A DNA stretch of 64,000 nucleotides from Pyrinomonadaceae bacterium (GTDB lineage: Bacteria; Acidobacteriota; Blastocatellia; Pyrinomonadales; Pyrinomonadaceae): the NCBI GenBank assembly GCA_025054715.1, contig JANWYH010000002.1, positions 186,001 through 250,000 on the forward strand, read 5' to 3'. The stretch's first letter is position 1. Each line of letters begins with the position of its first letter. The notes under the pieces are model-generated. The model had not been told where the DNA came from, searched no databases, and saw only the letters and a list, made by a program, of their open reading frames with translations. Below, piece after piece: positions 55,177 to 61,696 of the stretch. The translations under genes and the position numbers were made by a program.

Positions 55177-55206
55177 AAGCATGGCTTTTCAGAAGAAGCC
55201 ATGCTT
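55177..55206. repeat. Inverted repeat at the hfq 3' end
   Basis: AAGCATGGCTT (55177-55187) pairs with AAGCCATGCTT (55196-55206) over an 8-base loop. It overlaps the hfq stop codon. No U-tract follows on either strand, so it is not a standard terminator. It could stabilise the hfq mRNA end. The rest of 54936-55205 holds the terminator above; the short ORFs there have no support. Confidence 0.4.
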
Positions 55207-55439
55207 TAGTCTTGCTTCGTGTCAGCTTCTTGCTGAGAAGGTTTCTTTTTTGGATATTGAACCTTCGATATAGCGTGTTTGAAAACAAGAACATTTTCGC
55301 CGTCTGAATCTAGCAGAACGGCAAACTTATCAAAGCTTTTTATTCTACCTTTAACCGTTTCGCCATGAACTAAAGTTATCGAAACATTCGTCTTTTCTCG
55401 ACGAGCAATGTTCAAATAAGCGTCCTGAACTTTTCCCAT
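55206..55439 (-). CDS. hfq: RNA chaperone Hfq
   Basis: The 77-residue Sm-like protein has VQDAYLNIARREKTNVSITLVHGETVKGRIKSFDKFAVLL (Sm1; in the usual NQ.PFLN position it reads QDAYLN) and LVFKHAISKVQYP (Sm2, with the YKHA-type box). It binds sRNAs and mRNAs. AAAGGAG is 5-6 bases before ATG. It lies downstream of miaA on the same strand, an order shared with proteobacteria. The short Q/E/D tail is variable. Confidence 0.95.
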   Translation of the reverse strand: MGKVQDAYLNIARREKTNVSITLVHGETVKGRIKSFDKFAVLLDSDGENVLVFKHAISKVQYPKKKPSQQEADTKQD

Positions 55440-56665: not shown

Positions 56666-57673
56666 ATGAAAGAGGAAAAAATCAAAGTTGTAGAGGCGGC
56701 TATTTCGCAAATAGAGAGAAGATTTGGCAAGGGAGCAATAACTAAGTTAGGTGAAAAACCTTTAGGTGAGATAGAAGCAATTTCTACAAGCTGCTTGAGT
56801 CTCGATTTAGCATTAGGTGTTGGAGGATTTCCTAGAGGACGCACTATCGAAATTTTTGGACCTGAATCTTCAGGAAAAACAACGCTTGCCTTGCATGTGA
56901 TTGCGCAAGCTCAGAAAGAAGGCGGAATTGCAGCTTTTATAGACGCTGAACATGCACTTGATCCGTCGTATGCGAGCAAAATAGGTGTTCAAGTGGAAGA
57001 GCTTTTAATTTCTCAACCTGACTATGGAGAGCAGGCACTAGAAATAGCAGAGACGCTTGTTCGCTCAGGAGGAATAGACGTAATCGTAGTTGACTCCGTA
57101 GCAGCTCTTGTCCCGAGAGCAGAACTAGAAGGAGAGATGGGGGAAGCTCATGTCGGCCTAATAGCTAGACTCATGTCACAGGCTCTTAGGAAACTAACTA
57201 GTTCGGTTGCCGCTAGCCGAACATGTTTTATCTTTATAAATCAACTCAGAGAAAAAATAGGAGCCATGAGTTTTGGAAATCCGGAAACTACTACTGGAGG
57301 AAGAGCATTGAAATTTTATGCTTCTGTTAGAATAGATGTTCGCCGCATAGGTTCAGTCAAAGAAGGTGAGAAAATAATAGGAAGTAGGACAAAAGCGAAA
57401 ATAGTGAAAAACAAGGTTGCTCCTCCATTTGCCGAGTGCGAGTTTGATATTCTTTACGATGAGGGAATATCGAGGGAGTCAGACATACTCGATTTAGCAG
57501 TAGCCCATAAAATAGTTGAAAAAGCGGGAGCATGGTTTTCATATAAAGGTGAAAAATTAGGGCAAGGTAGAGAAAACGTTAGAAGATTGCTCAGGACAAA
57601 ACCAGAACTGTGCAACGAGATAGAAGATGAAATAAAGGAGAGGTTGAACTTCAAAGGTAAAAAAACTTCATAA
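56666..57673 (+). CDS. recA: Recombinase RecA
   Basis: The 335-residue product has Walker [14 protein letters not shown] (about 66-78), [29 protein letters not shown], the L2-side [17 protein letters not shown] and KNKVAPPF. It is slightly shorter than E. coli RecA (353) because the acidic tail is reduced. It starts with CGGAG 12 bases before ATG. No LexA box was recognised upstream. It converges on the lipoprotein gene. Confidence 0.97.
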
Positions 57674-57694: not shown

Positions 57695-58123
57695 TTATTG
57701 ATTCCCTGTAGTCTCTTTATCGGAGGATTTTTTGCGCTTATCTTTAGCTTTATTGATATTCACATTTGAAGGTTGATTTACGACATTTATGTCGACGGGA
57801 GTATTTAACTGTCTTTTTATCTCCTCGGGACTTGGGATTCCCGGAGTAGGTGTTTTTCCGGGCTTGAAAGGCTTGTTTAGTTCTTTTATGTCTGGTATTC
57901 CAGGCGTGGGAGTTGGTCCTTTAGGAACTTCCGTTATCTTACTTGGTTCAGGTATGCCGGGAGTCTGTCCTTGCACAGGAAGAGGATTTGCGGAAAACTC
58001 TGGCGGGAGGTCCTTTTCTTTTACAGAAACATTTGCTTTACCGGTGTTTCCGTCGGTTTCCTTATTGCCTGTTTGGCAAGCAAGAATGAGTGAAAAAATC
58101 GAAATTAAGGCTATTTTTTTCAT
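57695..58123 (-). CDS. Putative lipoprotein with TPGIP repeats
   Basis: The 142-residue product starts at ATG 58123, with GGGG 5 bases before it; the longer frame upstream is a read-through of the small RNA below. Lipobox LILAC is at about 12-16, so the mature protein would begin at Cys. The segment TPGIP recurs three times (once in QTPGIP and twice in PTPGIP) in a Pro/Thr/Lys-rich stretch, ending in charged KDKRKKSSDKE. No domain was recognised; it may reach through the periplasm. It is the only gene controlled by the region that holds the candidate RNA. Confidence 0.65.
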   Translation of the reverse strand: MKKIALISIFSLILACQTGNKETDGNTGKANVSVKEKDLPPEFSANPLPVQGQTPGIPEPSKITEVPKGPTPTPGIPDIKELNKPFKPGKTPTPGIPSPEEIKRQLNTPVDINVVNQPSNVNINKAKDKRKKSSDKETTGNQ

Positions 58124-58147
58124 AGTTTCCCCTTTTGAGATAATAAC

Positions 58148-58252
58148 AAAAAAAGTGCCGGCTTGAAAGTAGCGTTTCCGGAGGGCAGAAACGGCATTCA
58201 AACCGGCACGGGCGGGGGTAAGATAGTCTTGTAAAGTTGCCAAACGAGGCAA
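58148..58252 (-). ncRNA. Candidate small structured RNA (or leader) ending in an intrinsic terminator
   Basis: Starting near 58252 the minus strand gives: hairpin 1 TTGCC-TCGTTT-GGCAA (58252-58237), a linker CTTTACAAGACTATCTTACCCCCGCCC, and a long hairpin whose arms GTGCCGGTTTGAA and TTCAAGCCGGCAC (58209-58197, 58167-58155) pair over 13 bp (one G-U) with an inner CGTTTC/GAAACG stem. Seven Ts (58154-58148) follow. A promoter (TTGTTG, 18 bases, TATAAA) sits just upstream. So a 105-nt transcript with a start, a fold and an end is predicted. It may be a stand-alone RNA or a leader of the lipoprotein gene, whose AUG is 25 bases past the Ts. Confidence 0.55.
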
Positions 58253-58258
58253 ATCAAT

Positions 58259-58288
58259 TTTATAGCATAATTTGAAAAACTACAACAA
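58259..58288 (-). promoter_or_regulatory. Putative promoter of the small RNA
   Basis: On the minus strand TTGTTG (58288-58283), 18 bases, TATAAA (58264-58259), with TGC before TATAAA as an extended -10. The predicted start, 7 bases on, is the first base of hairpin 1. Confidence 0.5.
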
Positions 58289-58333: not shown

Positions 58334-59824
58334 ATGGATTTTGAGTCTGGATACCTAATAATTTCGGTTTTTGTTTGTTTTTTTGTGGCTTCTTATTCAT
58401 GGTATCAAGAGGCAAGGGGTAGCAAGTATCTTGCTTTCAGTAGCTTTTTAGCCGCTTTGTGGGTGATTGCGGAAGCTATCAAAAAGAACTTTGCTTTTTA
58501 TGATTCTCAACTTTCAGCAGAAATAATGCGATTTTTTGCGGTTATACTTCTGCCGCCAAGTTATTATATCTTTATCCACGAGTATTGCCGCGGCAGAGTT
58601 AAACGGAAGTATCTTTTCTACTTGGTTCCATCCATTTCTTTGTTGGTGTTCTTTTCTAATCCTTTTCATTCGCTCTTTTATGAAGGTTTTTACTTTACAG
58701 AAACTGGATTTTTAAGGCTAAATTTTAGTTACTACTTTTGGTTTATTCATGTCCCTTATTCTTTTTCTTTGATTTCGGCAAGCCTGGCAGTTTCCTTTTT
58801 AACTTTTCTTCGTGCTTCAAGGCAAGATAGAAAAAGGCTAGCAGTTTTGTTTATATCTACACTCTTTCCTTTTCTTGCGAGCATTTCTTCCACACTGAAG
58901 TTTTTCGGCACTTCTTTCATGACCGCTTATGCCTTCCCAGTTGCTTTTTTGATAATTGCTTACTCAATTTTTAGGTATAAATTCTTACAGACGAATCCAG
59001 TAATTTATGAGACTATCTTTCAGGTGATGACGGAGGGGGTAGTGGTTCTCGATAAAAGGAATGTGGTTGTAGATGCAAATCCCTCTTTTCTGAAAAGCGT
59101 CTCGATGGCAAAGGATGAGGTAGTGGGCAAAAATGCAGAGGAAGTCTTTTCTAAGTGGGGGCAGTACGTAGGAAAGTATAGAAAAGTAGATAGAGCTCAT
59201 GACGAAATAGAAGTGAGAATGAGCGGAGAAAGGCGATATTTTTCTCTGACGATAAAGCCTATTGAAACAGGAGACGGTTTCGAGGGTCGAATCCTTATTT
59301 TCAGGGATATAACCTATCAAAAAATGCATGAGCTTTCCTTGAAAGAAATGGCTTATAAAGACCCCCTAACGCAAGCAGCTAACCGATATAGACTTGAAAG
59401 CGAGATGAAATGGTTAATAGAAGAAAAGGAAAATTTTGGATTACTATATCTCGATTTGAATAATTTTAAGCGAGTTAATGATAGCTATGGGCATGAAACG
59501 GGAGACAAGCTTTTGAAGATAATAGCTTCGAGGGTTAGTTCAGCTTTGAGAGAAACTGATCTATTTGCAAGAGTTGGTGGAGACGAGTTTGTAGTTTTAG
59601 TCCGCAATGTGAGCGAGGTAGGGAAAATCAAAGAAAGGATCTCGGAAGTTTTTTTCGAGCCTTTTGAGATCGAAGGTAAAATCTTTGAGGTGGATTGTAG
59701 TATAGGTTTTGCTACCTATCCGAAGGATGGAAAAGATTTAATACAGCTGCTAAACAGGGCAGACTTAAGAATGTTCGAGGATAAGAGAAAGAGGAAGATG
59801 AGTTTGGATGAGTTTGTAAGTTGA
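58334..59824 (+). CDS. Membrane-bound diguanylate cyclase with 7TM-like sensor and PAS domain
   Basis: The 496-residue protein has an N-terminal block of about 7 membrane helices (1-220) of the histidine-kinase N-terminal 7TM type, a PAS domain (about 225-330) and a GGDEF domain (about 335-490). The active site RVGGDEFVVLV is intact. RETD five residues before GGDEF is the RxxD inhibitory site for c-di-GMP feedback. It should make c-di-GMP in response to an unknown membrane signal. A LytS-like kinase follows after 27 bases and may share the operon and signal. No EAL domain. Confidence 0.93.
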   Translation: MDFESGYLIISVFVCFFVASYSWYQEARGSKYLAFSSFLAALWVIAEAIKKNFAFYDSQLSAEIMRFFAVILLPPSYYIFIHEYCRGRVKRKYLFYLVPSISLLVFFSNPFHSLFYEGFYFTETGFLRLNFSYYFWFIHVPYSFSLISASLAVSFLTFLRASRQDRKRLAVLFISTLFPFLASISSTLKFFGTSFMTAYAFPVAFLIIAYSIFRYKFLQTNPVIYETIFQVMTEGVVVLDKRNVVVDANPSFLKSVSMAKDEVVGKNAEEVFSKWGQYVGKYRKVDRAHDEIEVRMSGERRYFSLTIKPIETGDGFEGRILIFRDITYQKMHELSLKEMAYKDPLTQAANRYRLESEMKWLIEEKENFGLLYLDLNNFKRVNDSYGHETGDKLLKIIASRVSSALRETDLFARVGGDEFVVLVRNVSEVGKIKERISEVFFEPFEIEGKIFEVDCSIGFATYPKDGKDLIQLLNRADLRMFEDKRKRKMSLDEFVS

Positions 59825-59851
59825 GAACGATTCTGAAATAGTATTTGATTG

Positions 59852-61696
59852 ATGGAAATATCGGCTTCACTAGTCAATCTTTTAGGATTTACGGTCGGGA
59901 TAATATTGTATTCCCTCTTAATGATAATGGTTTTCAGTTACAGGGAGAGGTCAATAAATTATCTGCTAGTTGCAACGGCTTTAGCCGGAATTTTATGGAA
60001 TTCAGGTGAGCTTTTTGCAAGCATTTTCCAGGAGCTTCAAATGCCCATACTTTACTCTTTTGTAGAGGCTGTATCCTTTTCTGCATTAGGTTTTCTCGCA
60101 CCCTTTGTTATTCATTCTTCCTTGAAAGATTCAAAGAGACATTATGAGAGAATTCTTGTATTTTCTGGGTACGTTTTAGGAATGGCATCCTTAGTCATAA
60201 ACTTGTTTTCGTTTCTTATTGAAGGCGAAGCTCCATCGAAGTTAAGTTTACAGGTTTTAGCTTTTGGTTCAGCTGTTTTAATAGTAGTAGTTTTAGCGTT
60301 TTTAAGAGGGAGTCGGAAAAAAATAATCTTAGCTGCATCACTAGCTATATTCATGATTTCTGCTTTTCATCTTAGCGTCGAGCAAGAAGAGAAGTTTTGG
60401 TTAGTCGAGCTTGTAGCTCATCAGGCTTCACTTCCTCTTGCGATTTTTATATTACTTCAGGACTATAGATTTGCTTTTGCTGACTTGTTTTTGAAAAGGG
60501 CGTTACTACTGATTTTGTTAGTAGTAGTAAGTTTCACATTTTATTCGTTTTTGTATTTGCCTTTGCTAAGAGGTTTGAACTTAGAGGATTTAGAGGCTAG
60601 CGCAATTTTGTTGGGATTTTGGGTTTTGACAGCGCTTATGTATCCGGTCCTCAACAAAAAAGCTAAATGGCTCGTAGAAGTAATCTTGCGCCGTGGTGAT
60701 TATGAAAAACTGAAGGATGGCATAATTTTGGCAGTTCAAAAGCTAAACAGCTCTGAAGAGATACTTGAGGTTGCCCTTCGAAAAATTAGCGAAAGTCTTG
60801 GGTCGGCCGAAAGTCAATTTGTAGAAGTCCAAGAAAGTTATGAAAATTTGCCTAAAGTGGAGGCGACTCAAAGAGCTTTGAAAATCTTAATACCTACGAC
60901 TGAGCCGCCATCTTATCTTTTGGTTTTTAAGGGGCTTTCCGGTGGAAGAAAACTTCTTTCTGAAGAAATAGAAGCTTTGAAGACAATTGCTCTGCTGATT
61001 GGTCGGAGAATAGATTTACTGAGAGTAAATCATGAAAGATGCGAAAAAGAGTTACGTGAGCAAGAATTTTCGAAGCTTGCTACGGAAGCGCAACTTGCAG
61101 CTTTGAGAGCTCAAATAAATCCTCATTTCTTGTTTAATTCTCTTACGACGATAGGATATTTGATACAATCTTCTCCTGAGAAAGCCTTTTCAACTTTGAT
61201 GAATCTTACGCAACTTCTTCGTGCCCTTCTTCGTTCTACAGATGAATTCATAACGGTAGAAGAAGAGATTAGGCTTATTCAGGCTTATTTGGAAATAGAG
61301 AAGGCAAGGTTTGAGGAGCGATTGAGCGTAGAAATCTATGTTCCAAAAGAGTTAGAGCAAATTAAGATACCTTCGCTACTGCTTCAACCCTTAGTAGAGA
61401 ATGCAATAAAACACGGTATATCAAGATCAAAGTCAGGCGGAAAAGTGAAAATATCGGCTGAGCTTTTGCAGGAAAATGGAGAGAGTTATATTCTTTTTTG
61501 CGTTTACGACAACGGTTGCGGTTTTGATTTGAAAACCTCAAAAAAGGGAATCGGTCTTACGAATATAAGCAGAAGACTGGAGAATTATTACAAAGGAAAA
61601 GCTGAACTTAGAGTTGAAGCCAAAAAGCAAAAGGGGACGAAAGCAATGATAAAGTTGCCTTTGGCTAAAAAGAGCGACTTTGTTAATGTGATTTAG
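59852..61696 (+). CDS. LytS-like sensor histidine kinase
   Basis: The 614-residue kinase has an N-terminal multi-helix membrane part (about 1-240), a GAF-like linker, and a C-terminal kinase. The phospho-acceptor motif ALRAQINPHFLFNSLTTIGYLI (His near 425) is the His_kinase family of LytS/YehU; the ATPase part has LLQPLVENAIKHGI (N box) and DNGCGFD (G1) plus GIGLTNISRRLE. The frame begins with TTG then ATG; ATG 59852 is chosen. No LytTR response regulator lies next to it; the next gene is nusB. The partner regulator is therefore elsewhere. Confidence 0.92.
   Translation: MEISASLVNLLGFTVGIILYSLLMIMVFSYRERSINYLLVATALAGILWNSGELFASIFQELQMPILYSFVEAVSFSALGFLAPFVIHSSLKDSKRHYERILVFSGYVLGMASLVINLFSFLIEGEAPSKLSLQVLAFGSAVLIVVVLAFLRGSRKKIILAASLAIFMISAFHLSVEQEEKFWLVELVAHQASLPLAIFILLQDYRFAFADLFLKRALLLILLVVVSFTFYSFLYLPLLRGLNLEDLEASAILLGFWVLTALMYPVLNKKAKWLVEVILRRGDYEKLKDGIILAVQKLNSSEEILEVALRKISESLGSAESQFVEVQESYENLPKVEATQRALKILIPTTEPPSYLLVFKGLSGGRKLLSEEIEALKTIALLIGRRIDLLRVNHERCEKELREQEFSKLATEAQLAALRAQINPHFLFNSLTTIGYLIQSSPEKAFSTLMNLTQLLRALLRSTDEFITVEEEIRLIQAYLEIEKARFEERLSVEIYVPKELEQIKIPSLLLQPLVENAIKHGISRSKSGGKVKISAELLQENGESYILFCVYDNGCGFDLKTSKKGIGLTNISRRLENYYKGKAELRVEAKKQKGTKAMIKLPLAKKSDFVNVI

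Follow-up and report, generated by a model that had tools for sequence, protein, structure and literature searches.

A probable single-copy small RNA gene of one Acidobacteriota family, with a C-rich terminator loop as its candidate pairing seed

A segment of about 105 nucleotides upstream of a lipoprotein gene in the genome of a Pyrinomonadaceae bacterium very probably encodes a functional RNA. Its relatives suggest a single-copy small RNA gene that appears to be specific to one Acidobacteriota family, of the Pyrinomonadaceae type, and that is likely to act independently of the lipoprotein. Judged by Rfam and the literature searched, it is well supported as a real, previously unclassified RNA family, while its function is one that we infer. 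The explanation preferred overall, at somewhat better than even confidence, is an independent small RNA whose C-rich terminator loop would act on G-rich ribosome-binding sites, and which would serve in some branches as the leader of the lipoprotein gene as well.

Architecture of the locus

The window, by which the whole 64,000-nucleotide stretch is meant, carries the RNA on its minus strand at positions 58148-58255, the start being approximate. Its presumed promoter (58259-58267, minus), read from the sequence, consists of an extended -10 element, TGCTATAAA, with a poor -35 element. Hairpin 1 (TTGCC-TCGTTT-GGCAA; 58237-58252, minus), defined by its fold and by covariation of the homologous hairpin in relatives, is followed by the unpaired C-rich linker CCCCCGCCC (58210-58218, minus), whose counterpart in aligned relatives reads ACCTGCCC or GCCCGCC. 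Hairpin 2 (58155-58209, minus) then forms the long interrupted stem of the terminator, with the apical pentaloop CCCTC at 58181-58185 (minus), and the T7 tract of the intrinsic terminator occupies 58148-58154 (minus).

The lipoprotein gene (57695-58123, minus), an open reading frame with relatives within the family, contains repeated TPTPGIP-like motifs and has no Pfam match; its ATG (58121-58123) lies 24 nucleotides past the T tract, with a Shine-Dalgarno GGGG at 58129-58132. The convergent neighbour is recA (56666-57673, plus), which tblastn of the flanks shows to be conserved across the family. The hfq gene (55206-55439, minus; Pfam PF17209, E 9.5e-22) lies about 2.7 kb from the RNA, close to the 3 kb given in the first-pass annotation. 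Also beside the RNA, on the plus strand at 58334-61696, are a 7TM-PAS-GGDEF gene and then a sensor kinase-like gene; in many relatives a tRNA gene is found there.

The segment from 58261 to 58148 on the minus strand has a minimum free energy of -38.3 kcal/mol, whereas shuffled sequences average -20.6 (sd 2.6; z -6.7) and none of 200 shuffles did as well. The unit of two hairpins, the second running into T7, that had been read from the sequence is thus upheld by its fold. Likewise, the earlier statement that the RNA matches no known family agrees with a scan of the window and its relatives against Rfam, in which neither 6C RNA nor any other family scored above its gathering threshold and the best permissive matches were at chance level (E 8.2 for the window). 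6S RNA was rejected as an identity; its RF00013 match lies elsewhere in the genome (G000:C18:28259-28468, E 8.8e-11). A non-exhaustive search of the open-access literature found no small RNA described from this Acidobacteriota family.

Homologs and conserved structure

Upstream of many relatives of the lipoprotein the leader recurs in the order TTGACA-16-TATAAT, a hairpin, ACCTTCCGAATTCCGTTTGATACCTGCCCGTGCCGG..., and then AGCTATTTTAAAT. A covariance model, R2, comprising 15 such leaders with the window excluded, was searched in 119 genomes of the family and matched 76 of them, in 23 of 29 genera, at essentially one locus per genome; one genome (G015) has two matches, on separate contigs. In the window's genome R2 has a single match, the RNA of the window, at E 5.4e-14. 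A second model, R3, was built, again with the window excluded, from a second group of loci itself discovered only through R2, and it recovers the first group and, at E 4.9e-11 and again as the sole match of the genome, the window. A mobile or multicopy repeat was rejected on the single copy per genome, the second matches on opposite strands reflecting the palindromic hairpin.

Within the window's genus, a DNA search of the one other genome gave no close copy, and neither model finds a copy in the sister species G001. The lipoprotein gene of G001 (L021, G001:C45) is on a different contig from its apparent recA contig. In other families of the class and in a phylum sample outside the family, the covariance models matched no genome under strict filters that may miss weak relatives. 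Among 80 named recA contigs the RNA is present on 27, always convergent with recA; one of these is titled Aridibacter famidurans, a genus that NCBI taxonomy places in Blastocatellaceae.

Both groups of homologs show extensive covariation. Changes on both sides of the pair were found for 11 of 28 pairs in the first group, where 97% of cells pair, and for 14 of 34 pairs in the second (94%). The observed covariation score was reached by none of 500 shuffles in each of the two disjoint alignments, and sliding the pairing partners destroyed the pairing in both. Because kinship among the sequences inflates the shuffle controls, more weight falls on the slid controls and on the fact that each of two disjoint models finds the other's group. 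The homologous hairpin 1 of relatives has two-sided changes in five of its seven pairs, and in the window's hairpin 2 a C-G pair has become U-A with pairing kept (columns 98-113). A covariance-model search had been proposed as a check on the original reading, and it has thus yielded covarying homologs in two disjoint sets. The groups differ in their 5' parts: where the first has a single hairpin ahead of the linker, a three-way junction occupies that place in the second, with GGATG/CATCC closing two hairpins. The most reduced copy is that of the window.

Conservation is strongest in hairpin 2, which adjoins recA, as would be expected of an ordinary strong or bidirectional terminator with no regulatory RNA attached. 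However, the 5' domain covaries too and consensus promoters lie upstream, while on the opposite, recA strand the palindromic hairpin folds too, but no T-run follows it. A terminator alone is therefore a very improbable account.

The GCCG/CGCWAC internal loop and the pentaloop are conserved in sequence beyond what pairing needs. This raises the possibility of a structural RNA, a sponge or scaffold, in which the two loops would form a protein site rather than an mRNA seed, and a single copy with consensus promoters does suggest an abundant RNA. Yet no known protein-binding motif was identified in it and it has no Rfam relative, and such a role is considered rather unlikely.

Neighbouring genes

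The first-pass annotation had offered, as one of two readings, an attenuator that senses a ligand and controls the lipoprotein gene. As a cis leader, be it riboswitch or attenuator, hairpin 2 would stop transcription short of the lipoprotein gene, and the degree of read-through would be set by a ligand or by hairpin 1. The short distance between the window's T7 tract and the lipoprotein ATG fits such an arrangement, as does the conservation of hairpin 1 and the linker. Furthermore, among 52 loci examined the lipoprotein gene comes next in 25, all of them among the 32 loci of the first group.

Conversely, at least 26 of the 52 loci carry the RNA with no lipoprotein gene. At six loci of the first group the RNA stands directly against recA, at a distance of 37-178 nucleotides, and at one more (L146) it is followed by an unrelated lipoprotein-like open reading frame. 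The lipoprotein gene is missing from all 20 loci of the second group, whose neighbours, by sequence reading, include an amidohydrolase-like gene on the opposite strand, a groEL-like gene, a tricorn-protease-like gene and a co-oriented caspase-like gene; an opposite-strand neighbour is frequent among these 26 loci. The reverse situation is also seen: of 99 family genomes sampled, about 40 encode relatives of the lipoprotein, and in some species the gene is present without the RNA. The constant link to a controlled gene that would mark a cis riboswitch or attenuator is thus lacking, and no competing antiterminator helix could be clearly made out.

Since each occurs without the other, the RNA appears to be retained for its own sake. 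A pure lipoprotein leader is untenable as the general role, the ligand-sensing attenuator is disfavoured in that capacity by the many genomes in which the RNA persists without a lipoprotein gene downstream, and cis control as the explanation of the RNA is held to be unlikely. A test for matching changes between the loop and the lipoprotein Shine-Dalgarno sequence, as a possible cis pairing might leave them, came out significant at 3 of 400 permutations. A control stretch within the gene was significant too, at 6 of 400; relatedness can account for the result, which was set aside.

A frequent companion is recA, convergent and downstream at 43 of the 52 loci; at most of the others the flank retrieved did not contain it. 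At one such locus (L174) the RNA adjoins a groEL-like gene. Among the species with the lipoprotein and no RNA, one locus (L031) retains the same consensus promoter, with only a short hairpin between it and the lipoprotein gene, possibly a late stage of RNA loss.

Promoter and transcript end

The earlier claim that the unit has its own promoter holds for the relatives, in which TTGACA-16-TATAAT sits at the same place as the window's presumed promoter. Scored against the sigma-70 consensus with 16-nucleotide spacing, 40 of 50 loci agree at all 12 positions and nine at 11, whereas scores for random stretches taken from these loci are mostly 6-8. The window's own promoter is degraded: its best score, 8 of 12, is within this background. 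Together with the absence of the RNA from the sister species G001, this weak promoter may indicate that the window's copy is decaying.

A similar distinction applies to the terminator. The T7 tract is present as described, but its length is peculiar to the window's copy, many relatives showing AGCTATTTTAAAT or similar after the stem. T-runs follow the stem directly in many copies of the second group, and the weaker tract of the first (TATTTTAAA) would lend itself to transcription continuing into the lipoprotein gene. As for the suggested Hfq-type small RNA, the T7 tail of the window's copy resembles a typical Hfq-binding U-tract of about seven U, but many relatives have a short or interrupted one.

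Small RNAs derived from 5' UTRs, and terminated leaders, have a terminator between leader and gene that yields a short RNA, while read-through yields the mRNA. The present RNA differs from these in that many genomes carry it without a gene following. Judged by the consensus promoters of relatives, the terminator hairpin and the copies that lack a downstream gene, it would constitute an independent unit of the kind seen in small RNAs of the 6C, sX13 and RepG type.

Candidate seed and comparison with known small RNAs

A conserved C-rich apical loop is the second feature shared with that type of RNA. In about 65 relatives, 283 of 339 bases in the pentaloop of hairpin 2 are C (83%; one mis-parsed locus, L210, is to be disregarded). 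The loop reads CCCCC, UCCCC, ACCCC or nearly so, and stays constant while its closing stem varies. It had originally been proposed that the C-rich linker pairs with G-rich ribosome sites; pairing through a C-rich element is still a plausible idea, but conservation points to the apical loop at the tip of the terminator hairpin, and these five bases, rather than the linker, are the best candidate seed. It should be borne in mind that any C-rich loop is complementary to some ribosome sites.

Three known RNAs offer precedents. In mycobacterial 6C/B11, the C-rich loop of the terminator hairpin has been shown to pair with target mRNAs, at G-tracks near their ribosome sites; this RNA folds into three stem-loops, of which loop 2 carries six cytosines and loop 3 nine (PMC12395582). 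The 115-nucleotide sX13 of Xanthomonas is strongly structured, bears three C-rich apical loops (4C, 4C and 5C) and targets G-rich motifs close to the start of translation, for which Hfq is dispensable (PMC3771888). RepG of Helicobacter pylori uses a C/U-rich terminator loop to bind a G-repeat in an mRNA leader (PMC8295292).

The present RNA is, like 6C/B11, a structured small RNA with a C-rich loop on its terminator hairpin, like sX13 a strongly structured RNA with a C-rich apical loop, and like RepG an RNA with a C-rich terminator loop, although its pairing role is only a candidate one. It differs from 6C/B11 in having one five-base C-rich terminator loop, another 5' domain and another neighbourhood; from sX13 in having no sequence relation by cmscan and in lacking its three C-loops; and from RepG in sequence, lineage and 5' part. 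Targets are known for sX13. With no Rfam family matching, the resemblance to all three is best read as one of design, not of descent.

Because B11, RepG and sX13 act through C-rich loops, loop pairing is the best-supported guess as to how the RNA works, and trans-pairing through the terminator loop is judged slightly more likely than not. The RNA would be transcribed from a sigma-70 promoter, of consensus form in relatives, with a structured 5' part and an exposed C-rich linker. Its terminator loop would pair with G-rich sequences at or near the ribosome-binding sites of target mRNAs and so lower their translation. In the branches with the lipoprotein gene next to it, the window among them, the lipoprotein would be made by read-through of the same terminator, since there is no space for a second promoter between RNA and gene, and the RNA would double as a 5' leader.

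A bolder proposal, offered as a tentative and rather doubtful one, is that this family-specific, strongly expressed RNA beside recA, with its three-way-junction 5' domain, would be a broad regulator of translation via the C-rich terminator loop, and that in one branch evolution recruited it as the 5' leader for a surface lipoprotein, read-through coupling the levels of both. Apart from that proposal, the locus illustrates how a free-standing RNA gene and the leader of a protein gene can interconvert. It would also extend the few RNAs with C-rich terminator loops to a further, independent lineage, suggesting a repeated origin of the design, and it offers an RNA family with a testable seed that is present in the record titled Aridibacter famidurans.

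Coding potential

The region is open in two frames, one of them running from 57695 to 58252, and many relatives have open frames with an ATG in the loop of hairpin 1, as a short protein gene would require. Close relatives nevertheless use different frames, several have lost the ATG, and one relative (L041) carries a 1-nucleotide insertion. A peptide gene was accordingly rejected, and a coding function is scarcely credible.

Separately, the 57695-58252 frame (minus) is in frame with the lipoprotein, and gene callers may wrongly add 43 N-terminal residues to that protein from a TTG start. Similar spurious N-terminal extensions of the lipoprotein are seen in relatives.
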